From contig NZ_CP091716.1 in NCBI RefSeq assembly GCF_022009635.1, positions 697,001 to 761,000 of the forward strand: 64,000 nt of DNA, in the 5' to 3' direction. The position numbers and the translations under genes were made by a program. This document shows positions 22,447-56,136 of the stretch, piece by piece. Numbering within the stretch: the first letter of the stretch is position 1; the number at the start of each line of letters is the position of its first letter. The notes under the pieces are model-generated. The model was not told the DNA's origin, ran no database searches, and saw nothing but the letters and a program-made list of their open reading frames with translations. This DNA comes from Variovorax paradoxus. Its GTDB lineage: Bacteria; Pseudomonadota; Gammaproteobacteria; Burkholderiales; Burkholderiaceae_C.

Positions 22447-22454
22447 GCGGTCAA

Positions 22455-31647: not shown

Positions 31648-32023
31648 GCGAAGAGACCTTTCCACTTGTGCGGAGCAACAGGAGCCTCCCCTGCTTGCCC
31701 AGAGAAAAAATGGGTGCGCGCGGTCTGATGGGCGATTACCAAATTGCCACGCACGCAGACGACACAGCGAAGCTGATGTTTCATAGATAAGCTGCTCGGA
31801 CGCAAAATTAGAGAAAACGATGCGCCGGTGATTCCAAAAGGCGAGCATCGGCCTTGACCCGTGCCGCTTGGGCAGCTAACCTATGGGTGTCTACTCCGTT
31901 TCGGTTATGCCGTGCGGGCAAGAGCCATCAGACTCGCGAGGGTTTGATGGTTTTTGTTTTTTTAAGTTTTCAGTCTGTTTTTCACTCCCTTTGAATCAGA
32001 TCTTGTCTTTCTGAAGTGAAAAA

Positions 32024-33424: not shown

Positions 33425-34744
33425 TCATTGCCAATTGAATGAAAGCTGTACTTGAGTGCTCGGGCTACGGCTTGGTGGAAGGGCGTTTTCTAAAGCCTCC
33501 GGCGCGTGGATTCGAAGCCACCTGAAGTGCAGCGCGCAGGCCGACATAATTTCCAATCTGCCGTAGTGAGGATGATTCTGCACAACCTGCTTGAGCGTGG
33601 AAAGCGAATGTTCGAGTCGCCGAGCCCGTTTGTAGTATGTCCAATGTGCGACAAGCGCCTTGTCCTTTCTTAACCAATGGGTGATCTCATACTCGGTCAA
33701 AGTGACTTCCTTTAAAATCTGTGTTTTAAGGTCGCAAGTTTCAAAAGCGTCGTACAGCGCTTGCGGCGCCCTTGTAAGCCTCGGAGTCAAAATTGCAGGG
33801 GGAAAAAGTTCAGCCAACGGTAAGCGCGTCGCGGCATGCGAATACTCATCCTCTAAATTACCTCGTTGGGTCGCTCCAATCCAGGCAAAAGCCATTGCCC
33901 ACGGCAGCGGGTTGTATTGCGCAGTTTTAAACAGAGGGCTCAGCCAGTTTCTTTGATTAACCCACGCGACGTCAACCGCGGGCAAATCGCTAAAATATGC
34001 GCTTGCAAGGGCTGCCAAATGCTTGGATTCATCGGTGCGAAGCTTTATTTCGCTTCGACAAAATCCTGCTGCTCGACACCGACTCCTAAGCATCACTTGC
34101 AAAACGGTAGTGTCTAGGGCGTTTTTTCCGACGATCCATGAAATGACTTCATAAAGTCTATGGAGTTTTAGAAAATTCTCTGTAGAAACCACATCTAATT
34201 TCGCGTCGGCTGCAAAGTACTCCGGAAGAGCCCATCCGACGTTACGACTATTCTGTTCAATATGAGACAGTATTGAGAAGTGCAAATCACACACCCATAC
34301 GCCTGGATATTGATGGGAAGTTCTCCAGTAGGTGAAATGGCTGCGGGCTAGGCTCTCATCCACGCATCTTGGGCACCATTTCAAGAGCCGAGCACTCTCG
34401 GGGCTGCAGTTCAAGCCGGATGCCGCTCGACTCGCGGCCGAGTTGCTCGAGAGCTTGCACGCGCTTAAGAGTTCACGGCGTCGCACCTCGGGTAGAAGCG
34501 GAATGTAAGCACCCAGCAGGCTCCGAAATCGAAGAGTGGATTCGTGGGTTGGAATTACCCCCTTCGATGCGAGCGTGAGGCTAGATAGAGCGGAGGGCAC
34601 AGCAACGTGCCTGGCCTCCCGGCGGCCGAACAGGTGCGCATCCAGCGAAGGCTCGCCAGACCCGTTTGCATGAAGCACGAGGCGCGCGTATATGCTGTAG
34701 ATGGTCTCGTCGTCGAAAACGGAGGGAAAGAACGCCGCAGGCAT
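33425..34744 (-). CDS. tniQ: TniQ/TnsD-family target-selection protein (long form)
   Basis: 439 residues from ATG at 34744. N-terminal TniQ domain FFPSVFDDETIYSIYARLVL and the zinc motif CPRCVDESLARSHFTYWRTS, then HQYPGVWVCDLH, followed by a TnsD-like C-terminal region of about 250 residues that would read a specific DNA site. It is separated from tnsABC by two genes. A long TnsD-like protein plus a short TniQ suggests two target-choice routes, one of them site-specific. Confidence 0.85.
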   Translation of the reverse strand: MPAAFFPSVFDDETIYSIYARLVLHANGSGEPSLDAHLFGRREARHVAVPSALSSLTLASKGVIPTHESTLRFRSLLGAYIPLLPEVRRRELLSACKLSSNSAASRAASGLNCSPESARLLKWCPRCVDESLARSHFTYWRTSHQYPGVWVCDLHFSILSHIEQNSRNVGWALPEYFAADAKLDVVSTENFLKLHRLYEVISWIVGKNALDTTVLQVMLRSRCRAAGFCRSEIKLRTDESKHLAALASAYFSDLPAVDVAWVNQRNWLSPLFKTAQYNPLPWAMAFAWIGATQRGNLEDEYSHAATRLPLAELFPPAILTPRLTRAPQALYDAFETCDLKTQILKEVTLTEYEITHWLRKDKALVAHWTYYKRARRLEHSLSTLKQVVQNHPHYGRLEIMSACALHFRWLRIHAPEALENALPPSRSPSTQVQLSFNWQ

Positions 34745-34761
34745 GACTGCATTCGCGTTGG

Positions 34762-35073
34762 CTAGGTCACCGCTCGTGCAAGCTCGGACGCGCTGTCGTT
34801 GTGAGCGAAGGATGGGTTCTGCGGGGCGCTCTTGAGCACGGCGGGGCAGGAGCCGTCGACGCCAGCGAGCGACTTGTCGCCGCCTTCCTTCACAAAATCG
34901 AGCAAGCGAGTGAAGCGCAAGCCCTTGCGCACGTCAGTGTCCAAGATCAGTTCGGCCCCGCCCGGATACGCCTCGATGTCGCGCACAAGGATGAGCAGGT
35001 GGCTAGTGATGTCGTCTGTCGATTTCGTTGCGCTGCACAGGCCAATGGCCTCTTTCTCGGGATGGGTGATCAT
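34762..35073 (-). pseudogene. Truncated second copy of the 35459-36280 gene (N-terminal 100 residues)
   Basis: From MITHPEKEAIGLC to SASELARAV it matches the start of the neighbouring full-length gene closely, then stops at TAG (34762) just where the Tn7-like module begins. DNA similarity extends from about 34767 to 35110, against 35974-36317 in the full copy. The 3' two-thirds are gone. The 35110-35357 stretch beside it holds one small signal-peptide-like frame (35070-35318) that I cannot support as a gene. Confidence 0.75.
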
Positions 35074-35357
35074 CGCGTCAGCGTAACCGCGAAGTGCGGA
35101 CGTCGCTGAGAACAGGGTTGCACGCGTATGAAGGCAGGCACCGGCCGGGCGGTTTTGTGAATCGTCGCCGTGCTGTCGCACAATAGCCGATCGGCTGCGG
35201 TCTGCGTAGTCGCAGAGGCTGCCAGCACGGCAGCAGCTGCCAGAAGCACACAGAACCCAGCCGACTTCGCGGCGAGATCGCAAGAGAAACGAACCGCGTC
35301 GGCAGCGAACCAGAGCATGTTTTCAGATTCGGGAGTGGGTAACGGATCGTAGCGGGC

Positions 35358-35462: not shown

Positions 35463-36280
35463 TCGAGTGAGCTTTCGTTCTTCAAGTAGCGAGCGCCTTT
35501 GAACTTCTTCAAGTTCGGTCCGCGTCGCACGTTGTTCATCAGGCGCCAGAACCACTGGCGCGGAATCTTGCCCGTAATCGACGGCGGGTAGTCGTAGCGA
35601 TACATGTCATCAGGCTCCCGCTGGATGGACGCATCGAAGGTGGGCTGAAGGTAAGTCTGCAGGCCCCATCGGATGTTGTTTAGCAACTCGGCAAGCCACG
35701 TGCTGTAGTAGAGAAAATAGTTCTCGGCCAAGTGGTTGCGAAAGTCATCAAGAGCCAGAGGCAACATCTCATCGTCGACTTGGTACCCGTGATCCTTGAG
35801 CGCTGAGGCAGCGATCCCTGAAACGCCCGTTAACCGCGACAGGTTGTGCTTTGAATGATTGCCGGAGATCGTGATGAGAACAAGGTTGGAGATCGACAAC
35901 TTCGCCTGCAGGTCGAGGGTCGGGAGCCACAGGCTGACCGTCGGCTTGGCATCCAGCCACTCCTCGAGCTCGATCACCGCTCGTGCAAGCTCGGACGCGC
36001 TGCCGTTGTGATCAAAGGATGGGTTCTGCGCGGCGCTCTTGAGGACAGCGAGGCAAGAACCGCTAACGCCAGTGAGCGACTTGTCGCCGCCTTCTTTCAC
36101 AAAATCGAGCAAGCGAATGAGGAACAAGTCCTTGTGCACGCCAGTGTCGAAGATCAGCTCGGCCTCGCCTGGATACGCCTTGACGTCGCGCACGTGGAAG
36201 ATCAGGTGATTGGCGATGTCGTCGATCGCTTCCATTGCGATGCATAGGCCAATGGCCTCCTTTTCGGGATGGGTGGTCAT
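35459..36280 (-). CDS. Unknown helical protein, possible defence gene
   Basis: 273 residues from ATG at 36280; a TTG at 36352 would add 24 residues and no start has a good ribosome site. The sequence runs MTTHPEKEAIGLCIAMEAID through LTGVSGIAASALKDHGYQVD to a C-terminal IPRQWFWRLMNNVRRGPNLK. Soluble, no nuclease or NTPase motif seen and no family recognised. A partial duplicate at 34762 and a coupled 34-residue peptide accompany it. It is divergent from the helicase operon. Confidence 0.6.
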   Translation of the reverse strand: MTTHPEKEAIGLCIAMEAIDDIANHLIFHVRDVKAYPGEAELIFDTGVHKDLFLIRLLDFVKEGGDKSLTGVSGSCLAVLKSAAQNPSFDHNGSASELARAVIELEEWLDAKPTVSLWLPTLDLQAKLSISNLVLITISGNHSKHNLSRLTGVSGIAASALKDHGYQVDDEMLPLALDDFRNHLAENYFLYYSTWLAELLNNIRWGLQTYLQPTFDASIQREPDDMYRYDYPPSITGKIPRQWFWRLMNNVRRGPNLKKFKGARYLKNESSLE

Positions 36281-36554
36281 CGCGTCAGCGTAACCGCGAA
36301 GCGCGGCCGTCGCTGAGCACTGGGTCCAGTCGTCCAAGAAGAGGCGGGGCAAGCCCAGACGTTGGTTAGAGAGTCATCCAACCGATGTCCGTGCTGTTGA
36401 TTCAACGACTTCGACAGCGACCGAAACACCGCCGATGGCGCGTCGACATGGTCAACCTCACCAACGACTCAGCGTCAAGCATCCCTCCGATGCATCGTGT
36501 GTGCGAGCTGACGATCAAAATATTGTGAGAGCACACAGTGATCGCGAGTTATTC

Positions 36555-36575: not shown

Positions 36576-36634
36576 AGCGAGCCCAGCCGGCCCAGTGCGT
36601 GGGCCCGGCGATCAAGCAGGCAACGAGGAGATCA

Positions 36635-36832
36635 ATGGCCGCAGAGAAGAACGTATCCGTGAGCTTCCGAGTCACCCCCGAGTTCAAGTCTCTTTTGGAA
36701 CTGGCGGCAATGCGCGAGCAGCGTAGCCAAACCAACCTGTTGGAGCGGCTGCTCTTCGACCACTGTCGCAAGCAAGGCATCGCAGCTCCCGTTGCCAGCA
36801 AATTGGTGACGCGCGAGAAGGCAGGTGCGTGA
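36635..36832 (+). CDS. Small ribbon-helix-helix (CopG-like) protein
   Basis: 65 residues from ATG at 36635 with a CGAGGAG ribosome site. The N-terminal strand NVSVSFRVTPEFKSLLELAA followed by helices with QRSQTNLLERLLFDHCRKQG matches RHH DNA-binding folds. It ends one base before the helicase ATG, so the two are translationally linked. Probable autoregulator of the operon. Confidence 0.65.
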   Translation: MAAEKNVSVSFRVTPEFKSLLELAAMREQRSQTNLLERLLFDHCRKQGIAAPVASKLVTREKAGA

Positions 36833-36833
36833 G

Positions 36834-39800
36834 ATGAGTGCAGCCGACCTGATGAAGAAGTTGCTCGACTACGTTCTCGAGCAAGCCAAGACCGTCGATC
36901 CGAAAGCTTTCAAGCTGGCCGGACACGCCGGGTTCTTAAAGGGGTACGCCGACCTGCAAGGCCTGCCTGGCGTCGACTTCGACGTGCAGGAGGATGGCGA
37001 CCACATCTGGCTCAAAACGGCCCGGCTGGAAGCACATCCACCACCGGCACTTCCGCCGCTCGCATTGCTGGGCGCTTCGAAGGCAACTCAACCGCCCATC
37101 ATCGTGAGCGCGGCACCCCATGGGACCCGGCCAAACATCGATGAGGCTGCGTTCCAGCGCCTTGTGGCCCTTCTGCCGCCCGCTCAGCCCGAGAAACTGG
37201 CCGAACGCGAAGAATTCATTGACATCAACCGCTCGAAGCTCGTGAGTGCCCTCAACCAGTACGTCCCGCTCTGGGAAGCCTGGGCTGAAGGTGAAAAGCC
37301 CCGGCGCCGGACCATCTCGCTCTATGGCGACCTCTTCGCCCTAAAGCACCAGTTGGAAGCAGAAGAGACCGCCAAACCGCAGGAGCTCGTCTGGGGCCTT
37401 GGCGTTTCGGCTTGGAAGCTTAGCTACGCCGCGCGCCTTCAAACGTCCATCATCGACTTCCAATACCCGCTCATCACCCAGGCCATGGAGATTGGCATGG
37501 ATGACCGCACACTGGCATTGGAAGTTCGACCCCGCTCGGTCGGCCCGCAGTTCTCTTTCGATGCCTTCGCGGCATGCCAATTGATGAGCGCACCGGAAGT
37601 CGAGAAGGCCGCGCGCGAGGCCTTGGTCAAGGGTGCGGACCGTCCAGTCAGCCCATTCGATCCGGGCAGCTTCGAACATCTGCTCAAGCTCATTGCCGGA
37701 AACCTGCACGACAAGGGGCGCTACGAGCAGAACTTCGAGGGTTTTCCCAAGGCCAACGATGAGCTTGTGGTCACCGACGCATGGGTTCTCCTGTCCCGCC
37801 CGAAATCCGTCAACTTCTTGCAGGAGGACATCGAGCGCCTCAAAACACGCCTGACACCGGACGTCTCGATTCCGCTTGGACCACTGGCACTCGTGACACC
37901 GCCCTCAGACGATCCATCGACGCACGCCTCGTCTGCGTTTCGCGGGCTCTCTGGCACGTCCGGTGGTCACGGCGCCACCGGCAAGGTGCAGGAGCTGTTC
38001 TTCCCCCTGCCCTACAACCACGAGCAAGTCACCATCGTCGAGCAGCTTGAGCGCGCTGCGGGGGTCACGGTTCAGGGGCCGCCCGGCACTGGCAAGACGC
38101 ACACGATCGCGAACATCGTTTGCCATTACCTGGCCACGGGCCGCAAGGTGTTGGTGACCTCCAAGGGCGAGCAAGCACTCGAGGTGCTTCAGTCGAAGAT
38201 TCCCGAGATGATCCGGCCGTTGACGGTCGCGCTCCTCTCCGGGGACCGCGAGGGCATGCGCCAGTTTCAGGGCTCCATCGAAGCCATCATTCACAACGTC
38301 TCGCAGCTCAACCTTGAAGTGGTTCGAGATCAGATTCGCAATGAGCACAGTGGCATCGACCGCGCGCATTCCGAGCTCGCAACCATCGACCGCCGCGTGG
38401 ACACCATCGCGATGGCGCAACTCTCCGACATCGAAGTCGATGGGATAGGCATGCGGGCCCAAAAGATGGCGGAGCTCGTCATCTCTGGCGAAGAGAAGCA
38501 CGCTTGGTTCGACGACGTGCTGTCGCTCGACCCGGCCCATGCGCCCCCTATCGACGCGGGGGTGGCGGCCCAGACGCGCGAAGCTCGCCGCCGGCTCGGC
38601 AAGGACCTTGGCTACGCGCTCTCCCGCATCCCGGCGAGCGTGAACATGTTGGCGGCCGAGCAGGTCTCTCAGCTGCACGACGCGCTGGTGAGCCTTCGTC
38701 AGATTGAAGCGGCGGAGGCGGACGGTGGCCTTCTGGCGTTGCGCGCCATGACGCCCGACGTCCTGGAAGATGCCCGCAAGTTGCTGAGCAAGGTCGAGTC
38801 GGCTCGCCAGCTGGCGCACGAACTTGAAGAGACAGGCGAGATGTGGACTCGCGAGCTCCGCAAGAAATGCGGACAGGCCACGTTTGCCAGCGAGCGCGCG
38901 GCTTTCGAGGCCCTCTTTGGTGACATTGACAAACTGGTCGCAGCGCGCGCTGAACTCCTGAAGACGCCCATCGATGTGCCCGAACTCGCACTCGCCTCGG
39001 CCAAGGTCCGGGAAGCTGTGCAACGCGCGGCGGAGACCGGCAAGCCATTCGGCCTCATGAGCTTCGGCGGTGGCGACGTCAAGGAACTGGTCGCAGGCAT
39101 TCGCGTCAGCGGTCTTGTGCCATCTTCCGTCGAGCACTGGAAGCACGTGCAGCGCTACCTCGTCCTCCACGAACAGATCCTTTCATTCGGGGTGCGCTGG
39201 AACCAGGTCGCAGACCTTCTGTCTCTGCCCAGCCTCCAGGGCGGCGTGGTCGCGCTGCGCCAGGTCGAGCTGGTCACCACGATGGCACGCAAGGTCCACA
39301 CGCTCGCGACCGTCTACGACGGCCATACGCCCGGCCTTGGAGAACGCGTTTTTGCGAAGCCGCCGACGGCCCAATTGCTCGGAACGTCCAGTCAGCTCGG
39401 AGAAGTGCAACAGCACCTGCGAAGCCACCTGACCCGCGTCGAGCTGGCGAGGGCTGCGACCACGTTGGTCATTCTCCAGGAAAAACTGGCAGGCACCACC
39501 GGGGCGGTGGCGGACGCGTTGCGAGAGTTTGTCGACAAGGACCTGGGCAATGTCGCCATGCCAGGCGAGCGCGCCACGGCCCGCTACGCCGAACTCGTGG
39601 GCGAAATCCGTCGCGTCGAAGCTTTGGTGCATGACCTCGCTCTGGTCAACGACGTGTCCGACCGCCTTGAGCAAGCCGGCGCCGCGAAGTTGTCGGTGCG
39701 TGTTCGCAGCCAATTGGTCGATGCATCCGGGGAGGATTTGGCGCTGCCGGTCGGCTGGCGCGAGGCCTGGACCTGGTCCCGTGTGCGGGCCCACCTCGAT

Positions 39801-41480
39801 GCCATCGAGTCGCGCGAAGAGCTGCGCACCCTTGCTGCGCGACGGCGTGACCTCGAAGCGGGCCTGGCGCGTCTCTACGAAAGCGTGGTCTCGAAGTCGG
39901 CCTGGCTGTCGACAAAGCTGAGCGCATCGCCGAAGGTGCTGGCGGCACTTGGCAAGTACAGCACCGCGATGCGGCGCATCGGCCAAGGCACGGGCCCCAA
40001 CGCGACCCGATACCGCCGTGATGCTCAAGCGGCCATGATGGAAGCCCAAGGTGCCATCCCCTGCTGGGTGATGAGCCACTCGAAAGTCTCCGAAACCTTG
40101 CCGGCGCACCTTGGCGCGTTCGATCTGGTCATCGTCGACGAGGCCAGCCAGTCCGACTTGTGGGCGCTGCCCGCGGTGCTGCGAGGCAAGAAGATTCTGG
40201 TGGTGGGCGACGACAAGCAGGTCTCGCCGGATGGCGGGTTCATCTCGTCGGTCCGCATTCAGGAGCTGCGCGACCGGTTTCTGAGCGAGCAGCCCTACGC
40301 TGCGGTTCTAACGCCGGAGATGTCGCTGTACGACATCGCGTCGGCCGTGTTCGCTTCCAACAAGGTGATGCTGCGAGAGCACTTCCGCTGCGTGCCGCCC
40401 ATCATTGGCTACAGCAACACGTTCTACGACCATCAGATTCAACCCTTGCGCATCCCGAAGGCGTCGGAACGCATCGACCCGCCACTCGTGGACATCTTCG
40501 TTCCTGGTGGAACGCGCGGCGCGAAAGCCGAGAACATGATGGAAGCCGAGTGCATTGTTGAGGAAATCGCCGCCATCGTGGCCAACCCTCAACTGGTTGG
40601 CCGGACCATCGGTGTCGTCTCGATGCTCGGTCTCGAGCAGGCCAAACGCATCGACTCGATGGTGCGCCAGCGCATGGATGCCAAGGAGCTCATGCGCCGG
40701 AAGTTTGACGTCGGCGATGCCCGCCTCTTCCAGGGCAGCGAGCGCGACATCATGTTTCTGTCGATGGTCGTGGGCCAGGAGGGCGCCAAGGCGGTTTCGG
40801 GCAATGCCTTCGAACAGCGATTCAACGTCGCGGCGAGCCGGGCGCGCGACCGGATGTACCTTGTGCGCTCGGTGCAGATGGCAGACCTTTCACACTTGGA
40901 CTTGCGTCGCGGGCTGCTGGAGCATTTCAGCAAACCGGATGCAGGGCCGCAAATGGAGGGAGATGCCAAGTCGCTCATCGACCTGTGCGAGTCGGGCTTC
41001 GAGAAGCAGGTCTATTCTGAGCTCTACAGCCGCGGTTACCGCGTGGTCCCGCAGGTGAAGGCTGGTGCGTTCCGCATCGACATGGTCGTTGAGAGCGCCG
41101 ATGACGCTCGCTTGGCGATCGAGTGCGATGGCGACGAGTATCACGGGCCTGATCGGTGGCAGGCCGACATGGGTCGCCAGCGGGTCCTGGAACGCGCGGG
41201 CTGGACCTTCTGGCGCTGCTTCGCGTCGGCTTGGTCCCTGCAACGCGAAGCCATCGTCGAAGAATTGCTGGCAAGGCTGAGTGCAATGGGCATCGAGCCG
41301 CTTGGCAAGCTGGAGCGCGTGCCGTCCCTGGTTGAGTATCGGGAATGGCGCCCGGCGGAGTTCGCAAAGACAGCGGAAGGCGCATCCGCGGACGCTTTGG
41401 AGGATGCCATTGCAGCGGCATTGACTACGCCAGACATGAACACGGGGGCCGTCGCGGACAGCATATCGCTCAAGGCCTGA
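36834..41480 (+). CDS. Large SF1 helicase with C-terminal Vsr/DUF559-like nuclease domain
   Basis: 1548 residues. Walker A is QGPPGTGKTHTIAN (about residue 413). A helical insert of about 600 residues precedes motif II LVIVDEASQSDLW (about 1100). Then come GDDKQVSPDG (motif III), REHFRC, FQGSERDIMFLSM and NVAASRARDRMYLV (motif VI), as in UvrD/Upf1-type SF1 helicases. The last domain (about 1370-1475: IDMVVESADDARLAIECDGD, EYHGPDRWQADMGRQRVLER, AGWTFWR) is a Vsr/DUF559 (REase_MTES_1575-like) endonuclease with the Asp and His metal ligands. It should unwind and cut nucleic acid, and probably acts with the YhaO/YhaN pair downstream. Confidence 0.88.
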   Translation: MSAADLMKKLLDYVLEQAKTVDPKAFKLAGHAGFLKGYADLQGLPGVDFDVQEDGDHIWLKTARLEAHPPPALPPLALLGASKATQPPIIVSAAPHGTRPNIDEAAFQRLVALLPPAQPEKLAEREEFIDINRSKLVSALNQYVPLWEAWAEGEKPRRRTISLYGDLFALKHQLEAEETAKPQELVWGLGVSAWKLSYAARLQTSIIDFQYPLITQAMEIGMDDRTLALEVRPRSVGPQFSFDAFAACQLMSAPEVEKAAREALVKGADRPVSPFDPGSFEHLLKLIAGNLHDKGRYEQNFEGFPKANDELVVTDAWVLLSRPKSVNFLQEDIERLKTRLTPDVSIPLGPLALVTPPSDDPSTHASSAFRGLSGTSGGHGATGKVQELFFPLPYNHEQVTIVEQLERAAGVTVQGPPGTGKTHTIANIVCHYLATGRKVLVTSKGEQALEVLQSKIPEMIRPLTVALLSGDREGMRQFQGSIEAIIHNVSQLNLEVVRDQIRNEHSGIDRAHSELATIDRRVDTIAMAQLSDIEVDGIGMRAQKMAELVISGEEKHAWFDDVLSLDPAHAPPIDAGVAAQTREARRRLGKDLGYALSRIPASVNMLAAEQVSQLHDALVSLRQIEAAEADGGLLALRAMTPDVLEDARKLLSKVESARQLAHELEETGEMWTRELRKKCGQATFASERAAFEALFGDIDKLVAARAELLKTPIDVPELALASAKVREAVQRAAETGKPFGLMSFGGGDVKELVAGIRVSGLVPSSVEHWKHVQRYLVLHEQILSFGVRWNQVADLLSLPSLQGGVVALRQVELVTTMARKVHTLATVYDGHTPGLGERVFAKPPTAQLLGTSSQLGEVQQHLRSHLTRVELARAATTLVILQEKLAGTTGAVADALREFVDKDLGNVAMPGERATARYAELVGEIRRVEALVHDLALVNDVSDRLEQAGAAKLSVRVRSQLVDASGEDLALPVGWREAWTWSRVRAHLDAIESREELRTLAARRRDLEAGLARLYESVVSKSAWLSTKLSASPKVLAALGKYSTAMRRIGQGTGPNATRYRRDAQAAMMEAQGAIPCWVMSHSKVSETLPAHLGAFDLVIVDEASQSDLWALPAVLRGKKILVVGDDKQVSPDGGFISSVRIQELRDRFLSEQPYAAVLTPEMSLYDIASAVFASNKVMLREHFRCVPPIIGYSNTFYDHQIQPLRIPKASERIDPPLVDIFVPGGTRGAKAENMMEAECIVEEIAAIVANPQLVGRTIGVVSMLGLEQAKRIDSMVRQRMDAKELMRRKFDVGDARLFQGSERDIMFLSMVVGQEGAKAVSGNAFEQRFNVAASRARDRMYLVRSVQMADLSHLDLRRGLLEHFSKPDAGPQMEGDAKSLIDLCESGFEKQVYSELYSRGYRVVPQVKAGAFRIDMVVESADDARLAIECDGDEYHGPDRWQADMGRQRVLERAGWTFWRCFASAWSLQREAIVEELLARLSAMGIEPLGKLERVPSLVEYREWRPAEFAKTAEGASADALEDAIAAALTTPDMNTGAVADSISLKA

Positions 41481-41567
41481 ACGACAGCATGTGGTGGGGC
41501 GGATCGCGTTGCGGCGACGGTCCACGCGCACGGTACATAACGAAGGTTCCTGGAAGGGGAGATCGGC

Positions 41568-42824
41568 GTGGGATTCAAATTCATTCACACAGCGGACATT
41601 CACCTTGACAGCCCGCTCCGCGGGCTGAGTGCCTACGAGAATGCACCCGCAGAGCGTCTGCGCAATGTTTCGCGCGAAGCACTCAAGGAACTGGTGACCA
41701 GGGCCATCGATGAAGAGGTCTCCTTCGTCGTGATCTCCGGTGACCTCTACGACGGCGACTGGCGGGACTACAACACGGGCATCTTTTTCGCCGGCCAGAT
41801 GGGTCGGTTGGCGAAGGCCAACATCCGTGTGTTTCTGCTGCATGGCAACCACGATGCGGAGAGCGAGATGACAAGGAAGCTCGCACTTCCCTCCAACGTC
41901 ACGGTGTTCTCTTCGAAATCGGCGCACGTTCACAAGATTGACGATTTCAAGGTCGCGCTGCACGGACAGAGCTTTGCCAATCGCGCCGTGCTCGAGAACC
42001 TGGCCTCGGGTTACAAGCCGAAAGTGGACGGCTACTACAACATCGGAATGCTGCATACCGCGCTCGAAGGGTATGTGGCCCACCCGACCTACGCGCCATG
42101 CACGATCAATGAACTGCACGGGAAGGGCTACGACTATTGGGCGCTCGGCCATGTTCACGATTACCAGATGTGGGAAGGTGCTTCGACCATCGTGTTTCCT
42201 GGCAATCTTCAGGGTCGGCATGTGCGTGAGACGGGTCGCAAGGGTGCCGTGTGCGTCTCGGTCGACGATGCGGGGCATGCCACTGTCGACCGGCTTTACC
42301 TCGACATCCTGCGCTGGGAAAAGCTCGGGGTGGACGTCGGCGCGTGCGCCAACATCGACGAGGTCGCTCACGCGGTGGGAGCGGGACTGACGGGCCTGCT
42401 GGAGGCGGACAGCGTTCCGCGCGCCGTGCGCGTCGTCCTTGAAGGACAGACCCGGCTCCACGGCGCGCTTGTCGGCGCACCGGCCTTGGTGCGCGCACAG
42501 GTTTTGGCGCAGGTCGAGGCCATCGATCCGGAGCAGTTCTGGATCGAGAAAGTGAGGGTCGCGACCACCGCGATGGACGCGCCCGCGCCGGGGGAGTCTC
42601 GCGAGGCGATGGCCGATTTGCAAGCCATCTTTGCCGAGGCGAGTTCCGACCCCGACTTCATGGCGCACCTACAGCAGCAGCTGCAGCCGTTCCTGAACAA
42701 AGTTTCCGACGAAATGAACGAGGACGTGCCGCTGCTGGAACTCGCGCGTCAGAAGCGCTTTTCGGAAATGGTCCTGGAGGTCGCGCCCGCGCTTCTCTCC
42801 CAGTTGAACGCAAAGGGGTTGTGA
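41568..42824 (+). CDS. YhaO/SbcD-like metallophosphoesterase (DNA exonuclease family)
   Basis: 418 residues from a GTG at 41568 with a strong GGAAGGGGAG site. The five phosphoesterase motifs are present: HTADIHLDSPL, SGDLYDGDW, LLHGNHDAES, IGMLHT and ALGHVHDYQ, so a two-metal nuclease site is likely. The C-terminal 150 residues (capping and helical part) fit YhaO rather than short SbcD. It overlaps the YhaN-like gene by one base and would form an Mre11-Rad50-like complex with it. Confidence 0.9.
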   Translation: MGFKFIHTADIHLDSPLRGLSAYENAPAERLRNVSREALKELVTRAIDEEVSFVVISGDLYDGDWRDYNTGIFFAGQMGRLAKANIRVFLLHGNHDAESEMTRKLALPSNVTVFSSKSAHVHKIDDFKVALHGQSFANRAVLENLASGYKPKVDGYYNIGMLHTALEGYVAHPTYAPCTINELHGKGYDYWALGHVHDYQMWEGASTIVFPGNLQGRHVRETGRKGAVCVSVDDAGHATVDRLYLDILRWEKLGVDVGACANIDEVAHAVGAGLTGLLEADSVPRAVRVVLEGQTRLHGALVGAPALVRAQVLAQVEAIDPEQFWIEKVRVATTAMDAPAPGESREAMADLQAIFAEASSDPDFMAHLQQQLQPFLNKVSDEMNEDVPLLELARQKRFSEMVLEVAPALLSQLNAKGL

Positions 42825-45800
42825 TGCGACTGGCCGAACTCGATCTGCTTGCCTACGGCAAATTCACCGACACGAAGCTGCCGTTCCCCAAGGCCGAGCA
42901 CGACTTCCACATCGTCATCGGCCCGAACGAGGCCGGGAAGTCCACCGTACGCCGCGCCATCACCGAGCTGCTCTTCGGCATGGAGGTGCGCTCCCCACTG
43001 GGCTTCAAGCATGCGCAGAGTGACCTGCGACTGGCTGGCGTGCTCGAGGGCGGACCGTCCAGACTCGCCTTCATCCGCACCAAGCAGCAAAAGTCATTGC
43101 GCTCGATGTCCGACGAGGTGCTCCAGGAAAGCTATCTGGCAGGCACTCTCGGCGCATTGACCCAGGAAACCTTCGAAGAGCTGCACTGCCTGGACCATGG
43201 AAGATTGCTCAGGGGCGGACAAGGCATCGTCGACCCGAAGAACTCCGTCAGCCAGATCCTGTTCCAGGCGGCCTCGGGCCTCGAGGACTTCGCCGTCATC
43301 CGCGAGGCCCTCGGGGAACGCGCCAGCGCGCTCTTTGCCAAGACAGGAAAAAACAATCGGTTCGCCAAGGCCTCGGAAAAATTCACCTCCGCGCATCGAA
43401 CGCTGAGGGAAGTGCAGGTGCGCACCAAGGTATGGGTCGACACGCGAGAAGCGCTGCAGGCCGCAGAGGATGCGCTTGAGAGTGAGCGCGACAGAAGACG
43501 AGCTCTGGAACTGCAACGAACGGCCTGGGATCGGGCAAGGCGCCTGGCACACCTGATCTCGGCCCTGGATCAGTTGCAGGCCGAGGACGCGCAACGCGGC
43601 GAGGTGACTGTCTTTGCGCCAGGTGCGAGGGAGGTGCTCGAGAGCGGCATCGAGCAGATCAACGCGGCGTCGGCCACCCATTTGACCCGCGAGGAAGATG
43701 CCATCCGGGCGCAGACGGCTTTCGATGGGATAGACACCAACGAGGACATCCTCCAGGAATCCGCTTTGATCACCCGGCTGGGCGCCCTGTGCGGCCTGCA
43801 TCCCAACCACGCCCGCGACCTCCCGCTGCGCCGTGCGGAAGTCAACGCTTGGTTGGCCGACATCATCGAGCGCAGCGAGCAGTTTGGCTGGGGGGTGAGC
43901 GAAGCCGAGGTGCGCGCCAGTCTTCCGCAGGACAAAGTCGTGCGATCGATCGATGCGCTCCTGAAGAGCCGTGGTGCCTACGTGGCGGAGGAGCGCGCAG
44001 CGCGCGACACCCTGGCGGAGCGCCAGACAACGGTTGATACATTGAAGGAGAAGCTTGCCGCGTCCGCAAGCCAGGGCCCAGATGCGCTGCTCGTGGAGTC
44101 CCTCGAGATGGCGCTCCCGTTCAAAGCGAGCGACGCGAACTTGAAAGCTTTGGCGGCCGCCGCGCAGAGCGCACGGACCCTTGCGCGCAACGCCTTGACG
44201 AGCTTGGGAAGGCCTGCGCTCACCGAAGACCTCCTCCGGTCGCTGCGCCTTCCGTCCCTTGAGCGCGTGAACGCCTACCGTCAGGGCCGGCAGGATGTGG
44301 CTCAGGCCTTGGAGCTCGGGCGATCCCTCGCAACGCAGAGTCAGACCACCGCGGACGGCATTGCGCTGAGCCTGAAACAGTTTGAGCGCTCGCACCAGGT
44401 TGTGACCGTCGCACAAGTGTCGGACGCCCGCCGCGATCGGGATCACCATTGGGCCGGCATCAAGGCGGGAAGCTTGTCGCTCACCGAAGGCGCACCTCGG
44501 CTGGACACTGCCATTCGGCTGGCCGACGAGTTGGGCGACTCTCGCACACGATCCGAAGCCGACGCTGCGGAGGTGCAGGCCCTGCGCGACCAGATCGAAC
44601 GGGCAACGCAGGAGCAGGCCCGGCACGACGGCGTCGTCGAACAGAAGGGCATCGAACTCGACGCGCTCGATGCACGATGGCGCGAGACCGCCGCCGCCAT
44701 GGGCCTTGAGGGCATGGAGCTCGACGATCTCCCTGAATGGCTCAGCCTGAGGGATGCCGCCTTGCGCGCGGCCGACACGGCCGAGCAGAAAAAAGGGGAA
44801 TGCGACGACGCGCAGGAGGCTGCGCGTCTGGCCCAGGAGGCACTTGCCCAAGCCGTGAGCGCTGCGGGTCTCGTCGTGACCGGCGCCTCAGGCATCGCAG
44901 CGCTTTGCGCAATCGCGGACAACCACGTCCAGGCTGCGAACGTCAATCGCACGCGTCGTCTGGATCTGCAGCAGCAGCTGGAAAGCGCGGAGACGGCGTT
45001 GCGGGTCGCCACGACGGCCAAAGAAGCGAAGGGGCAGGCCCTGCTCGAATGGAACACGAAATGGGAAGCGACGCTCGCCCGTGCCAATCTCACTGGCCTC
45101 GGTGGCGACATCGGCGAAGCCGAGGCCGCCATCCGGGCTTGCGAGTTCATTCGCCAGCGCATGGAGCGGGTCGACACGATGCGGTTGGAGCGAATCGAAA
45201 CGATGGAGGCCGACCTGCGCACAATGCAAGAGGCTGCTGCGACTCTGACCGAGAAGATGGCTCCGGAACTGGCAGGAAACGCGCCTGAGGAGGTGTTCGG
45301 CATCCTGAATGCGAGGCTCGAGGAGGCGAAGCGGGGGGCGGATCGCAAGTCGCATGCGCAGAAATACCTCGACGACGCCTTGCGTCGCCGCGACGACGCG
45401 AACTCGGATCTGCTGCAGGCCAGACGGAGTCTGGCGCCTTTGCTCGGTATCGCGGGCGTCGATGAGCCGAAGCTTGCGCTGCCCCTGATTGAGCGATGGG
45501 AGACAAGCAACAAACAGCAGGCGGAGATCAGCCGAATCCAGAAAGAAATCGATTCGCACTCCGACGGCCTGCCGCTCTCAAAAATTCGACAGGAGGTCGC
45601 CAGTCATCCGGCCGACCAGGCGGCCGATCAGGTCCTGCGCTTGAAGGACCTGCTCAGCGATTCCGATCTCAAGCTCACGTCGCTCGTAACGAGCCAGATC
45701 CAGGCGAGGGCCGCATTCGACACGATCAACGGCGGCGACAAAGCAGCCGTTGCCGAAGCCGAGCGGCACGAAGCATTGGCCGAGATGTCGGAAGTGAGTG

Positions 45801-46294
45801 AGGAGTACCTGCAGCTTGCAACCGCAGGCAGCTTGCTGAAGTGGGCGGTGGACCGCTACCGCGACCGGAAGCAAGGGCCGCTTTTGGACCAGGCCAGCGA
45901 AATTTTCAGGGACCTGACGCTCGGTGCCTTCCAGAAGCTGCGTGTCGATTTTGAGCAGACGCCTCCAGCCCTCGTCGCCTACAGGCCGAACTCGCTGGCG
46001 GTCAAGGTTTCTGGCCTGAGCGACGGGACGCGAGACCAGCTCTTCCTGGCGCTGAGGATTGCCGCGCTGGAGCTTCAGTCGGATCAAGGAACACCGGTCC
46101 CCTTCATCGCGGACGACCTCTTCATCAACTTCGATGACAGGCGATCGCAGGCGGGTCTGGAGGCCCTGTTCGCTCTCTCGGCCAGCACCCAAGTGATCTT
46201 CCTTAGCCATCAGGAACACCTGCTGCCGGTGGTCCAAAAGCTGTTTCCGCAAGCGAATCTGCTCCAGTTGAGCGCCGATGAGGTTGCTGCGTAA
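42824..46294 (+). CDS. YhaN/SbcC-like SMC-type ATPase
   Basis: 1156 residues from the ATG at 42824 in TGATG; an in-frame GTG lies one codon earlier. N-terminal Walker A IGPNEAGKSTVRRA, long coiled-coil arms (about 180-950), then the ABC signature VSGLSDGTRDQLFLALR and Walker B PFIADDLFINFDDRR with the D-loop region. No zinc-hook CxxC was noticed at the centre, in line with YhaN rather than SbcC. Partner of the phosphoesterase just upstream. Confidence 0.88.
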   Translation: MRLAELDLLAYGKFTDTKLPFPKAEHDFHIVIGPNEAGKSTVRRAITELLFGMEVRSPLGFKHAQSDLRLAGVLEGGPSRLAFIRTKQQKSLRSMSDEVLQESYLAGTLGALTQETFEELHCLDHGRLLRGGQGIVDPKNSVSQILFQAASGLEDFAVIREALGERASALFAKTGKNNRFAKASEKFTSAHRTLREVQVRTKVWVDTREALQAAEDALESERDRRRALELQRTAWDRARRLAHLISALDQLQAEDAQRGEVTVFAPGAREVLESGIEQINAASATHLTREEDAIRAQTAFDGIDTNEDILQESALITRLGALCGLHPNHARDLPLRRAEVNAWLADIIERSEQFGWGVSEAEVRASLPQDKVVRSIDALLKSRGAYVAEERAARDTLAERQTTVDTLKEKLAASASQGPDALLVESLEMALPFKASDANLKALAAAAQSARTLARNALTSLGRPALTEDLLRSLRLPSLERVNAYRQGRQDVAQALELGRSLATQSQTTADGIALSLKQFERSHQVVTVAQVSDARRDRDHHWAGIKAGSLSLTEGAPRLDTAIRLADELGDSRTRSEADAAEVQALRDQIERATQEQARHDGVVEQKGIELDALDARWRETAAAMGLEGMELDDLPEWLSLRDAALRAADTAEQKKGECDDAQEAARLAQEALAQAVSAAGLVVTGASGIAALCAIADNHVQAANVNRTRRLDLQQQLESAETALRVATTAKEAKGQALLEWNTKWEATLARANLTGLGGDIGEAEAAIRACEFIRQRMERVDTMRLERIETMEADLRTMQEAAATLTEKMAPELAGNAPEEVFGILNARLEEAKRGADRKSHAQKYLDDALRRRDDANSDLLQARRSLAPLLGIAGVDEPKLALPLIERWETSNKQQAEISRIQKEIDSHSDGLPLSKIRQEVASHPADQAADQVLRLKDLLSDSDLKLTSLVTSQIQARAAFDTINGGDKAAVAEAERHEALAEMSEVSEEYLQLATAGSLLKWAVDRYRDRKQGPLLDQASEIFRDLTLGAFQKLRVDFEQTPPALVAYRPNSLAVKVSGLSDGTRDQLFLALRIAALELQSDQGTPVPFIADDLFINFDDRRSQAGLEALFALSASTQVIFLSHQEHLLPVVQKLFPQANLLQLSADEVAA

Positions 46295-46351
46295 TGTGCG
46301 GTACGAAATGACGACGGCTCAAAAGCGGCGGCGACCGGCCAGGAGGGTGCA

Positions 46352-47404
46352 ATGTTCATCAAACGATTTCTGACTGGCCTGTTCGGTGGCCGCTCACAAC
46401 GGCCGAACTCGCCGGCGAATCTCTCTGCAAACCCCTCCGGTGGAACGGCGTCAACTCGGCCGGCGGCGCGACCGAAAAAGACTGACCGTGACACCCGCTT
46501 CGATCACTCCGTGTTGACGGTCGGCTCGCTGCGCTTCGTCGGGCAAGGTGTCCGTTCGCCCAACAAGCGGTGGGTGGTTGGCTGTTCAGACCGCTTGCCT
46601 GGCATGAACGCACGCCTCGATGAACTCGACGGATCTGCCGTGCTCGTGGACTACTTAGAAGACCGCATCCTGGCGAGGTTGACAGGGCTGTATCGTCCAA
46701 TGGACGCTGCGGTGGCAGACGATGGCACGTTCGTGGTGAACGACGCCAACTTCGGCAACCGGTTGAGCGCCGAGGTTCAGGCATTCGACGTCAAGGGGCG
46801 CAAGCTGTTCGGACGGAAATACAAAGCCAACGTCTTCAACCTGGCCATTTCTAAGTGCGGACGCTACGCCGTTGTCCAAACAGCCAACGCCGACAACCAA
46901 GACGGTCACCTGCTCGAGTTGTTCGACTTGCAGGCAGGAGGCCCCATGTTCTCGCGCACCCCGGCGACGGGCTGGGCAGACCAGTACAGCTTCGTTGTCG
47001 ACGACCGCGGCAACTTGAAGCATCTGACAGTTGTCCACAATGACATCGGTCGCTTCAACTATTCGCCAGAGGGAGAGTTCCTTGAGGCCGCCGCCTATCA
47101 GAATGCTCGCCTGAAAAAGGGAGCGCCGGAGATGCGTATTTATGCGGCCAAGGAGGCGCAAAAGGCTGACCCCGAGAACCACCAACTTGCGCAGGAACTG
47201 ATCGCTGTCCTCGATGCTGCGCTGGGTGAGCTGACCATCGATCGCACAGACTATCGTGCGATCGGACTGCGTGTGAAGGGCGAAGCCATGGAGTTGACAG
47301 GTCGGCCGGGTGACGCTCTTGCTGCTTACGCAGAGGCCGTGAAACTGAATCCAAAAATAGGTGTGGCCAAACGGCTTGCTGCGCTGAAGAAGGGAATGCC
47401 GTGA
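46352..47404 (+). CDS. Beta-propeller-like protein with C-terminal TPR
   Basis: 350 residues from ATG at 46352 with an AGGAGG site, 57 bp after the YhaN-like stop. After a basic N-terminus, residues about 50-240 show repeated WD/NHL-like blades (RFVGQGVRSPNKRWVVGCSD, AAVADDGTFVVNDANFGNRL, LAISKCGRYAVVQTANADNQ). The last 60 residues contain a TPR-like helix pair (GDALAAYAEAVKLNPKIGVA). It may sense or bind a partner. No enzyme motif. Likely the last main gene of the helicase operon. Confidence 0.65.
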   Translation: MFIKRFLTGLFGGRSQRPNSPANLSANPSGGTASTRPAARPKKTDRDTRFDHSVLTVGSLRFVGQGVRSPNKRWVVGCSDRLPGMNARLDELDGSAVLVDYLEDRILARLTGLYRPMDAAVADDGTFVVNDANFGNRLSAEVQAFDVKGRKLFGRKYKANVFNLAISKCGRYAVVQTANADNQDGHLLELFDLQAGGPMFSRTPATGWADQYSFVVDDRGNLKHLTVVHNDIGRFNYSPEGEFLEAAAYQNARLKKGAPEMRIYAAKEAQKADPENHQLAQELIAVLDAALGELTIDRTDYRAIGLRVKGEAMELTGRPGDALAAYAEAVKLNPKIGVAKRLAALKKGMP

Positions 47405-47535
47405 TCAGGAAGCGCTATGAGGGGCCCGTCGAGCGTTCGCTAGTACCCATCCGAGATGCTGCGCAGGACGCTCGAGCCGAGCGCAAGATCGCAACAGAGC
47501 CTCTTCTGATGGACGCGCGCTGGGTGACGGGCTGA
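47401..47535 (+). CDS. 44-residue peptide overlapping the propeller gene stop
   Basis: A GTG at 47401 overlaps the previous TGA (GTGA) and reads 44 codons, beginning IRKRYEGPVERSLVPIRDAA after the start and ending LLMDARWVTG. Charged, no known family. The coupled start argues for translation. It ends 37 bp before the convergent S-4TM gene. Confidence 0.4.
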   Translation: MIRKRYEGPVERSLVPIRDAAQDARAERKIATEPLLMDARWVTG

Positions 47536-47572: not shown

Positions 47573-48481
47573 TCAGGGCTTCATGGCCTGCTCCGCTTCA
47601 GCTACGAGATGCGCTGCCCCCGAGTTCATCTGCACCTCATGTTCATCGCGCAAGCGTTTGAAGAGGAAATCGAAGACCAGTGGATTGCGCTTCCGCCCAT
47701 CAAAAATCTCTCCTTGCAAAGCTCGTGACTCATTTTCTAGCGTACGGTCGTCTGCTCCGCTGAGCGCGGCCTTCCAGGATTTCTCTGCGCACGCGCGGAG
47801 AATGTCCAGCCTGTTGGCGGCCTCACGGTTGTCGCTCCATTGTTGATAGGCTTGCTTTAAAGTCGACAACATGGGGAACAGCACAATCAAGATCAACTCA
47901 TTGACCGAAAGCTTTGCAAAGACGCCCAGGGCAAGGACGACGAGGAAACTCGTGAGCAGAATTCCGCCCATGACGGACGCGTATTTGCGGCGCTGCTCGG
48001 CATCCCACCAGCAGTTCGTGCGCTGACAGATTAGACGGGCCATTGGCATGGGCAGGCTGCCCACCACCACCGAGTACCAGTCCTCCAGCGACGTCATCGT
48101 GTGGGCGATCTTTTGATAGCGGGCAGACTGTCGGATCACGTTTTCATGCGGCTCCTGGCTGCCCACTCGCGTTGCATCCCAACTCAGGTTCAACACCTCG
48201 CAGTCGAAGCGTTCCTGGATTCGGGCACCGGATTCACGAAGACGTTTTTGCTTTGGTGTGAAGTACGCGAGATCGAGCACAAGGACGATCACTCCCCACA
48301 GCGCAACAATGATCTTCCAGTCGGGCACGAAGATGCTCACCATGGCCGTCGCTGCTGCCAGTGGCCCAATCAGCACCAGTTGGAAAGCCAGCAAGCACTT
48401 GGCGTCCGAATAAGTTTGCCGTTGCGCGCTGAGTAGCTGCAGTGAATACCGCTCGTTCTGCTTCGTGATGATCTGGTTCAT
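47573..48481 (-). CDS. CBASS effector, S-4TM family pore-forming protein
   Basis: 302 residues from ATG at 48481 with an AGAGGG site; a TTG at 48523 would add 14. N-terminal ITKQNERYSLQLLSAQRQTY and four membrane helices (about residues 32-56, 60-78, 175-197, 200-218) match S-4TM (SMODS-associated 4TM) effectors, which open the inner membrane when a cyclic nucleotide binds. Last gene of the CD-NTase operon. Confidence 0.88.
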   Translation of the reverse strand: MNQIITKQNERYSLQLLSAQRQTYSDAKCLLAFQLVLIGPLAAATAMVSIFVPDWKIIVALWGVIVLVLDLAYFTPKQKRLRESGARIQERFDCEVLNLSWDATRVGSQEPHENVIRQSARYQKIAHTMTSLEDWYSVVVGSLPMPMARLICQRTNCWWDAEQRRKYASVMGGILLTSFLVVLALGVFAKLSVNELILIVLFPMLSTLKQAYQQWSDNREAANRLDILRACAEKSWKAALSGADDRTLENESRALQGEIFDGRKRNPLVFDFLFKRLRDEHEVQMNSGAAHLVAEAEQAMKP

Positions 48482-48533
48482 GCGATCCCTCTGCTCCCAT
48501 TGTTTTTGACTGACGTAGTTCAATTTGGCGGCG

Positions 48534-48986
48534 TCACCGCCACCGCTTCTTCTTCGGCACTGGATGCTCGCCGCCGCCCGCCCACTGGTCGGTCACGAGC
48601 CACTCTTCAAAATAATTCAGCCACTCGCTGGTCCACGCGATGTAGGTCTCCAGCAGTCGCATGTGAGAAGACCATTCGCTCTTGCGAGGGAGCCAGAGGC
48701 AGAGCTTGGTGCCACCACCATCGTGTCGGTAGATGTGCGGAAGCGTTCGTCCATCTGACAGTTCGAGCAGATTGGGCGACAGGATGAACATTTCCGGGAA
48801 GCCAGTCCGCGTCATCACCAGCAGGCATTGATATTGACGGGAGAAGGCCGTCGGCGAGATCGCAAACCGGAAGCGCAGCTCGCGACCTTGAACCAGTTGC
48901 ACTTGCGCATCGGGAAAGCGTAGCGCCCGCAGCTCGTAAGCCCGCTCGGGCAGGGTCGGCGCCGGCATGCTCGGTCTGCGACCCAT
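48534..48986 (-). CDS. CBASS E2-like protein (Cap2 E2-only type)
   Basis: 150 residues from the ATG at 48986, which shares a base with the CD-NTase stop. The E2-like features are the HIYRHDGGGTKLCLWLPRKS stretch, with the likely catalytic Cys in KLCLW, and the C-terminal IAWTSEWLNYFEEWLVTDQW, then GGGEHP. E2-only proteins define short type II CBASS, where they ligate the CD-NTase C-terminus to a target and raise its activity. No E1 or JAB gene is present. Confidence 0.78.
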   Translation of the reverse strand: MGRRPSMPAPTLPERAYELRALRFPDAQVQLVQGRELRFRFAISPTAFSRQYQCLLVMTRTGFPEMFILSPNLLELSDGRTLPHIYRHDGGGTKLCLWLPRKSEWSSHMRLLETYIAWTSEWLNYFEEWLVTDQWAGGGEHPVPKKKRWR

Positions 48987-50242
48987 CAATCACCGAAATT
49001 GGTGTGGGCGCGGCTCGGTGTGGAAATCGCAGCAGATCCGCCAGCGATGAAGACAGCCTGGCCCGACGTCCTCTTTTCCTCGCGCCGTGCGGCGTTGTCC
49101 TCGAGCACCGCGTTCTTTGCACGGTCTCCGAATGCGCGTTCGGCAGCCTTGGCAATGACGTCGAGGCCGGCGCTTTGATCGATGGCATCAACGAGGGCGG
49201 TCAGGTCCGTCTGCAGGCGTTCGTGCCAAGCATCGAACGCCTTCTGCTTGGAGCTCGTGTCCATGCAACCTGCCAGGTTGTCGTTCAGGGCGGTCGGGTT
49301 GCTGAGATACCAAAACTCCCTGCCTTCAGGCAACTGGAGGCGCTGGAAAAGCTTGGGCATCAGCGACACCATGTCCAGCAGCAGGTCCATGGGGCCATCG
49401 TGTGGCTTGGGCGCTTCAATCGCGTAGGCATTGGCGACAAGGGTCGTGAGGAAACTCGAGGGCGGTGCCAGATCCAACGTGCCCGAGGGTGCACCGAACC
49501 GAATGTTGCGATTGATCTTGGTGAGCTGCACCAGACGCGACAGCAGGCGGCCAAAAACTTCGTCCGCATCAGGCAGCGGCACCAGTTCGGACTTTCGCAT
49601 CGAGTCGAATGTCATGTGCATCGCGGTGGAGCGTTCGAACGCCGGCGAGATCTGCGCGATGAGGTCGAAGGCTTTGCAGTACCCACGCGGGTTGGTTGAG
49701 ATGTAGCGCTGCAGGTCGCGGTCGGGGATGCTTGCGTGCGTGTCGCCGTGCATCACCACCTGCGAGGGGTCGTCGATGATCGGCGCGAAGTCGGCCGTCA
49801 TGCCACCGGCGTAGGTCAGCGTGACGCACCGTTCGTGTCGCTTGATTTCCAGACCGTGCCGGTCGGCGTAGCGCTTCAACGCGACGTAGAGGTGTTCAAT
49901 GAGGAGTGCGGGGCCGGTCGAGCCACTGTAGCGGCGCATGCCGGCTGCTTCCAGGCAGGCGGCCAAGTCGATGTCGTAGCCGGTCCGGCATGCGTCAATG
50001 GGTCGAACCATCGTTCCGAGCTGCCGGGAGCCGTGCGCATGAACCCGGTACAGCAAGCCATCGAATTCCGGGCAAGTCGCCAGGTAGTCGCCTGTGCTCC
50101 CGTAGGCTCGGTCGAGCTCCTCGAGTTGGGTGGTGGTCGGCTCGTAGACCCGCGCGATCTTCTCGGCGAGGTAGAAGAATTTCGCAGACGCCGCATCGGA
50201 AAAACGGCGGCGGGTCGGAAGCTGGGGAAGATCGCGTTGCAT
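48986..50242 (-). CDS. CD-NTase (cGAS/DncV-like nucleotidyltransferase) of a CBASS
   Basis: 418 residues. The active-site pattern is complete: VHAHGSRQLGTMVRP (G-S), TGYDIDLAACLE (D-x-D) and the third Asp in GGMTADFAPIID. A helical OAS1-C-like domain follows. The C-terminus ends AHTNFGD after a flexible tail, a tail type used by E2 proteins for conjugation. It would make a cyclic oligonucleotide on infection to trigger the S-4TM effector. Confidence 0.92.
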   Translation of the reverse strand: MQRDLPQLPTRRRFSDAASAKFFYLAEKIARVYEPTTTQLEELDRAYGSTGDYLATCPEFDGLLYRVHAHGSRQLGTMVRPIDACRTGYDIDLAACLEAAGMRRYSGSTGPALLIEHLYVALKRYADRHGLEIKRHERCVTLTYAGGMTADFAPIIDDPSQVVMHGDTHASIPDRDLQRYISTNPRGYCKAFDLIAQISPAFERSTAMHMTFDSMRKSELVPLPDADEVFGRLLSRLVQLTKINRNIRFGAPSGTLDLAPPSSFLTTLVANAYAIEAPKPHDGPMDLLLDMVSLMPKLFQRLQLPEGREFWYLSNPTALNDNLAGCMDTSSKQKAFDAWHERLQTDLTALVDAIDQSAGLDVIAKAAERAFGDRAKNAVLEDNAARREEKRTSGQAVFIAGGSAAISTPSRAHTNFGD

Positions 50243-55995: not shown

Positions 55996-56136
55996 ATCGC
56001 GGGCTTCCTTGACCTCGGTTTCCGCCAGGCCGACCAGCGTGAAGCTGGGCAGACCGTTGGCCAGATGCACCTCGACCGTGACACTGGCCGCTTCCAGCCC
56101 CAGCAAGGCTCGGCCCTGCACCAAAGACAAACTCAT
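55882..56136 (-). pseudogene. comM: yifB/comM (Mg-chelatase-like ATPase), only the first 47 codons remain
   Basis: From ATG at 56136 the sequence MSLSLVQGRALLGLEAASVT and on to GLAETEVKEARD is the start of YifB/ComM. At 55996 it changes to unrelated residues (GPFQQSAVSN...) and stops at 55882. ComM is a branch-migration helicase in natural transformation, and its gene is a known insertion target for Tn6022/AbaR-type islands. The other 450 or so codons are not in the window, so the gene is inactivated. Confidence 0.9.

Follow-up and report, generated by a model that had tools for sequence, protein, structure and literature searches.

Five consecutive, intact open reading frames (ORFs) were found on the plus strand at positions 36635-47404 of the window, which here means the whole 64,000-nucleotide stretch of Variovorax paradoxus contig NZ_CP091716.1 that was analysed. 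A sequence-only reading had taken them for one new defence operon ending at 47535; the last gene stops at 47404, and the genes probably belong to two separate cassettes, of which cassette 1 comprises the first two genes and cassette 2 the other three. The genes are as follows:

36635-36832, plus strand: small RHH-like protein, 65 amino acids from ATG (ORF; weak Pfam RHH_10 match)
36834-41480, plus strand: SF1 (UPF1/SEN1-like) helicase with a C-terminal MTES_1575 Vsr-type nuclease, 1548 amino acids (Pfam, motifs, PDB sequence matches)
41568-42824, plus strand: YhaO/Mre11-like phosphoesterase nuclease, 418 amino acids (Metallophos, motifs, 94% relative in L109)
42821-46294, plus strand: YhaN/Rad50-like ABC ATPase with a presumed coiled coil, 1157 amino acids (AAA_27, motifs, 90% relative in L109)
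46352-47404, plus strand: beta-propeller plus TPR protein, 350 amino acids (AlphaFold2 model, Foldseek, 81% relative in L109)

Much of the earlier description of these genes agrees with the present results. The five ORFs are consecutive and codirectional, the 1548-residue helicase carries its own nuclease domain by Pfam, and the YhaO-like and YhaN-like pair was recovered as a Metallophos gene followed by an AAA_27 ATPase gene, both above cut-off. One-base gaps or overlaps throughout had also been described, but this is true at two of the four junctions: the RHH and helicase genes are separated by 1 base and the YhaO and YhaN genes overlap, while the helicase/YhaO and YhaN/TPR gaps are 87 nt and 57 nt. 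The helicase is best started at the ATG at 36834; this choice yields 1548 amino acids and is supported by the equivalent start site of a Variovorax relative; a GTG three codons upstream is also possible. A dyad claimed before the first gene was rejected as an operator because, among 100 approximate dinucleotide shuffles of roughly 200 upstream bases, 30 reached its score, which is thus not above chance. The repeat search upstream of the RHH gene returned only a 14-bp palindrome (36515-36528).

The whole window was compared by blastn with the fetched loci of relatives, and two blocks of DNA similarity cover the five genes:

36620-41364, plus strand: similarity to Variovorax plasmid locus L122, 75.8% (blastn)
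41532-47427, plus strand: similarity to Acidovorax sp. SUPP3334 locus L109, 88.0% (blastn)

Similarity to relatives stops at the boundary between the two halves. The junction alignment places the border of cassette 2 36 bases before the YhaO start, so that this cassette probably brings a ribosome-binding region with it. For each half, the closest relative found sits at a locus that lacks the other half. At L122, a GIY-YIG nuclease gene comes after the RHH-helicase pair, and the 28.5 kb fetched contained no match to YhaO or YhaN. At L109, YhaO-YhaN-TPR lies behind genes that match ZorC (582 bits, truncated at the end of the locus) and ZorD (1550 bits), and a DUF3584 gene and then three further genes in series come after it. 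L109 repeats the 57-nt YhaN/TPR gap and gave no helicase match in the 19.4 kb fetched.

Co-occurrence of the halves was then counted in 299 genomes of the order, 149 of the family and 184 of the class, with the own genome excluded and a few genomes shared between samples. The helicase was paired with YhaN in the order and with YhaO in the family and class; in the order, helicase matches had E up to 1e-30, and a match of 760 bits or more was called long. With the own genome included (300 genomes), the order gave 39 helicase matches, 23 of them long and 16 to the C-terminal part only, and 20 YhaN matches. With it excluded, the helicase was present in 22 of 299 genomes, YhaN in 19 and both in 2 (G224 and G114), where 1.4 were expected (Fisher p 0.42), and none of the 16 partial helicase matches fell in a YhaN genome. 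No genome was shared between the 7 helicase and 4 YhaO genomes of the family (0.2 expected) or between the 2 and 8 of the class (0.1 expected). The two relatives lie on different contigs in G114 and 14.4 kb apart on one strand in G224. Stretches were fetched around all 19 YhaN matches and, with G153 excepted, around 21 of the 22 long helicase matches, some of the stretches being short at contig ends; helicase and YhaN were together in 0/21 and 0/19, respectively. The halves were likewise separate in a viral collection, with five helicase loci and one YhaO locus. The co-occurrence check proposed along with the single operon thus found the homologues together at chance level and adjacent in no sampled genome other than the own. 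Since co-occurrence is at chance level and DNA similarity breaks at the junction, one five-gene system was rejected.

These results suggest, with a probability of roughly 0.72, that the stretch is the head-to-tail junction of two independently inherited DNA-processing cassettes in a defence island. Defence islands gather such cassettes, which would explain why cassettes 1 and 2 lie side by side. The parts list and island setting of the sequence-only reading were therefore largely right, and the single system, with the propeller-TPR protein as its partner or specificity subunit, was not supported, because the halves rarely co-occur.

The first cassette centres on the helicase, which has AAA_11/AAA_12 domains in Pfam and the motifs GPPGTGKT, DEAS, GDDKQ, EHFRC, QGSERD and AASRAR, which we take to be Walker A, the DEAS box and motifs III-VI. 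It is a UPF1-like SF1 helicase, with PDB sequence matches to SEN1, UPF1/NAM7 and SMUBP-2. MTES_1575 (PF18741) scored 110.2 bits against a cut-off of 38.2 over residues 1392-1485 (GTG-start numbering); this nuclease domain is described in PMC3710099. Relatives of the helicase at 79% are found on four Variovorax plasmids, and the neighbourhood was inspected for one of these (L122). The small ORF before the helicase is real, as had been reported, but its RHH identity is tentative, as Pfam RHH_10 gave E 0.074 and 13.8 bits against a cut-off of 27. Relatives of the RHH gene lie directly before helicase relatives at L122, L147 and L095 (70%, 56% and 56% identity), with a doubtful relative in the same position at L071 (22%) and a fragment-like match before the helicase relative at L091. 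There was no tblastn match to it at the 21 helicase stretches of the order sample, and of the eight helicase loci in the family search, two gave a match. The RHH-helicase pairing is therefore recurrent but not general, and the RHH protein as an obligate helicase partner is unsupported because no RHH gene was found at most helicase relatives.

Cassette 2 holds a nuclease and ATPase pair in which the Metallophos gene directly precedes, and overlaps, the AAA_27 gene. YhaO scored 48.4 bits on Metallophos (Pfam cut-off 21.5) and has the motifs DxH, GDxYD, GNHD and GHxH; its matches to SbcD/Mre11 profiles were sub-threshold in Pfam and NCBIfam. YhaN scored 206.6 bits on AAA_27 (cut-off 22) and has Walker A, signature and Walker B motifs, and the motif check found no CxxC zinc hook anywhere in the protein. 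PADLOC linked YhaN to PtuA, mad3 and others through weak matches (13-32 bits), most of which lie over the ATPase head. YhaO adjoins YhaN in 18 of the 19 fetched YhaN stretches of the order sample. By the NG86 method, dN/dS against L109 is 0.07 for YhaO, 0.13 for YhaN and 0.18 for the TPR protein, and dN/dS of the helicase against L122 is about 0.12 with dS of 1.17, near saturation. Purifying selection maintains the protein products of the four large genes. For the RHH gene, no usable dS was obtained.

The fold of the propeller-TPR protein, as proposed earlier, is supported by an AlphaFold2 model (mean pLDDT 86.3, 22-sequence alignment, residues 8-42 below 50), in which beta strands at 48-237 are followed by helices at 246-348; the Pfam TPR matches in this last gene are below cut-off. 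Foldseek returned mostly WD40-type propellers at low TM-score. Relatives are rare, with one in 299 non-own genomes of the order sample (33% identity) and one in 398 genomes of the family (81% identity; judging by its contig position, probably the L109 record). A protein search gave 57 matches, the window's own among them. The genome-contig scan yielded 13 loci, with YhaO-YhaN present at L109 alone, so the TPR protein as a general YhaO-YhaN partner was rejected (1/13). Eight of the other scan loci were ORF-called, and L115, L118, L120 and L121 fell outside the neighbourhood reading. TPR relatives lie directly behind AbiEii genes, with overlapping ends, at L113, L114 and L117 (Pfam) and 2 kb behind an AbiEii gene at L111, and a SAVED-domain gene stands beside the TPR relative at L111 (Pfam) and L112 (via a relative). 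At L113, an Erythrobacter contig, positions 8197-11656 hold overlapping genes for DUF6088, AbiEii and a propeller-TPR-VRR nuclease fusion. Other settings are efflux genes (L110), a DUF11 protein (L119), three related viral-collection contigs (L104-L106) and a Pantoea plasmid with no clear defence neighbour. In the window and at L109, the TPR protein goes with YhaO-YhaN and not with the helicase.

The genes and their motifs, the borders of the cassettes, their separate occurrence and the purifying selection are shown by the results above. UPF1-like helicases are known to move along single strands, and complexes of the Mre11-Rad50 type to open DNA ends and cut them. From this established background we infer substrates, an antiviral role and roles for the RHH and TPR proteins as follows. 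Cassette 1 (36635-41480) would be a self-contained translocase-nuclease that probably binds invading nucleic acid that is abnormal or unmodified; the helicase would translocate on the bound nucleic acid and the Vsr-type domain would cut it, while the RHH protein probably regulates helicase expression. In cassette 2 (41568-47404), the YhaO nuclease and YhaN ATPase probably open and trim DNA ends, with the propeller-TPR protein as a probable scaffold or recruiting subunit.

Several points weigh against the two-cassette interpretation. The 14.4-kb spacing in G224 makes an island-level association of the halves possible. Neither a promoter-like nor a plus-strand terminator-like site was found between the helicase and YhaO halves, and the lack of such a promoter means that the halves could be co-transcribed here. 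As most helicase relatives lack the RHH gene, cassette 1 is firm as a unit only for the helicase together with its RHH-bearing relatives. The YhaO-YhaN-TPR set was seen in two genomes only, and the contexts of four other database TPR proteins at 82-86% identity were unreadable. In all three Burkholderia plasmid loci opened, YhaO-YhaN stands before HD-domain and DUF429 genes, and none of its direct neighbours is annotated as a defence gene, although two of the three loci have a RES-type toxin gene at a distance of about 4-6 kb. This arrangement suits a repair role. Finally, protection by either cassette is something that we infer.

A repair role is a serious rival for cassette 2. YhaO-YhaN-TPR could be a DNA-repair or plasmid-maintenance nuclease of mobile elements with no direct antiviral role, which would leave only the helicase cassette defensive; this is unlikely but deserves weight. 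It is consistent with the Burkholderia plasmids, with the annotation of plasmid YhaO relatives (228 records, 23 of the 30 listed being called 'DNA repair exonuclease') and with several sampled-genome pairs that had no obvious neighbouring operon, although ORF calls around the sampled-genome loci were rough. Neighbouring genes on plasmids argue the other way. The plasmid loci were hand-picked from match lists, so that their counts are not frequencies. Ten YhaO-YhaN loci were opened and nine were annotated; three of the nine have an adjacent named defence gene, one of them divergent, and six have none directly adjacent. In Methylomonas (L143), BREX brxL lies 134 nt upstream of YhaO. In Sphingobium cloacae (L154), an MmeI gene lies 91 nt upstream; it is 1020 bp long, probably a fragment, and stands behind an insertion sequence (IS). 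In Paraburkholderia, a divergent DUF3320 gene (Hhe/PDC-S37-like) is 1.1 kb from the pair. The trio or pair is directly downstream of Zorya at L109, of BREX at L143 and of an MmeI-type gene at L154. Uncharacterised ATPase and helicase genes are directly upstream of the pair in Methylotuvimicrobium, and toxin-antitoxin type genes are close by in Tardibacter and Sphingopyxis. We found no literature treating the YhaN/YhaO pair as defence, judged by titles and abstract openings, in coverage that is poor for subscription papers and preprints.

Another possible explanation is that YhaO-YhaN is a portable accessory that docks at the 3' end of larger helicase-containing defence operons (BREX, Zorya, RHH-helicase) and trims the DNA ends these expose, thereby making the operons more effective, the window being another such docking. 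We regard this as rather doubtful. Position and orientation at L143, L109, L154 and the window fit, but few loci do, given the three of nine plasmid loci above, and the BREX, Zorya, Wadjet and Shedu markers were unmatched at the 19 YhaN loci of the sampled genomes. With the Hhe marker added, tblastn gave no match at these loci or at the 21 helicase loci except at L072, where the Hhe marker matched the helicase itself. More improbable is a broader proposal in which YhaO-YhaN, here with a propeller-TPR adaptor, would be a mobile plug-in immunity nuclease behind BREX, Zorya and RHH-helicase that degrades the DNA on which they stall, and the propeller-TPR family an interchangeable adaptor also used by AbiE pairs, SAVED proteins and the VRR-nuclease fusion. 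One integrated defence system, with the helicase-nuclease, YhaO/YhaN and the propeller-TPR protein acting jointly on invading DNA under RHH control, is very unlikely: the shared strand, short gaps, intact motifs and absence of a promoter-like or plus-strand terminator-like site between the halves are in its favour, but the chance-level co-occurrence without adjacency, the closest relative of each half lacking the other and the similarity break at the junction are all against it.

Returning to the two-cassette interpretation, helicase relatives also have neighbours of their own. Seven plasmid helicase loci were opened and six were annotated, and four have a same-strand defence gene directly upstream. 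A helicase relative of about 36-38% identity lies 63 nt behind brxL in all three Acinetobacter BREX plasmids opened (L148, L149 and L150), where it is a possible BREX add-on. A relative in Sphingobium follows a BPTD_3080 restriction endonuclease gene at a distance of 127 nt.

Searches of PADLOC 2.0 and NCBIfam returned no named system with this gene set, in agreement with the sequence-only reading. Hhe, PDC-S37 and ProA likewise consist of a large SF1 helicase with a C-terminal nuclease, and PADLOC gave partial matches of 208 bits to PDC-S37 and 104 bits to Hhe. The helicase was nevertheless rejected as a member of each. It scored 151.1 bits on Hhe (NF042953) against a cut-off of 2000, the best stretch being residues 1077-1489, and a Pfam scan with E up to 0.1 returned no DUF4011 domain. 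On ProA (NF058533), it scored 230.1 bits against 1500. On PDC-S37, for which PADLOC as run has no cut-off, the better of two stretches covers profile positions 701-1340 of 1550, while a Caballeronia protein at L111 scores 1822. The window helicase is also shorter than the Hhe (1797, 1911) and ProA (1903) profiles and, here, is preceded by an RHH-like gene. The MkoA and MkoC models of Mokosh match the SF1 core at 67-113 bits, with best stretches in the helicase core only. Mokosh has PLD nuclease and kinase parts; the window helicase gives no Pfam match to either. YhaO-YhaN resembles SbcCD/Mre11-Rad50 in its adjacent nuclease and ABC-ATPase genes and key motifs, and some 38% YhaN relatives are annotated as 'YhaN family protein'. 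It differs from SbcCD in the SbcD score (TIGR00619, 50 against 77.65 bits), from Rad50/SbcC in lacking the zinc hook and from all of these in the third, propeller-TPR gene. The last genes of BREX directly precede relatives of both the helicase and YhaO-YhaN at some loci, as those of Zorya do for YhaO-YhaN, but a PADLOC scan of 15 window proteins recognised none from BREX or Zorya. According to the abstract of PMC9122589, BREX systems seem to lack a nuclease of their own.

The surroundings agree in part with the defence-rich island described earlier. Downstream, a CBASS pair on the minus strand at 47573-50242 comprises an S_4TM effector (PADLOC E 8e-132) and an oligonucleotide cyclase (E 4e-198), with an ORF at 48534-48989 between them. 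Upstream are instead TniQ-type genes, IS elements and an apparently broken mercury-resistance region. The TniQ-type genes lie on the minus strand at 25967-26947 (sub-threshold in Pfam) and 33425-34744 (above cut-off). Between them are minus-strand ORFs at 30751-31848, 28369-30747 and 27049-28347, which by eye resemble a Tn7-like TnsA/B/C set; none of the three gave an NCBIfam match, and the first two gave no Pfam match. Positions 15699-25230 hold DDE transposase, heavy-metal-associated and reductase-type domains, the apparent mercury-resistance region, together with resolvase, IS66-type and integrase-type matches. A 358-bp direct repeat (86% identity) lies just upstream of cassette 1, at 34761-35118 and 35968-36325. 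At about 55966-56136 on the minus strand, an N-terminal piece of a YifB/ComM-type gene (profile 1-55) stands at the edge of the GC-rich flank and is possibly the island insertion point; no clear terminal repeats of an element were found around the island.

The tempting call of a new operon is thus corrected, since adjacency in a defence island does not make a system. Two cassettes in an island are ordinary, and YhaO-YhaN with a propeller-TPR third gene is a modestly new variant. Two things remain useful: a YhaO-YhaN-TPR cassette that is movable, has clear borders and stands behind two different sets of genes, and a family of helicase-nucleases, RHH-linked in some lineages and placed behind BREX in Acinetobacter. 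Both cassettes can be cloned as exact units. If they are add-ons, the fate of invading DNA after its recognition by systems such as BREX would become testable.

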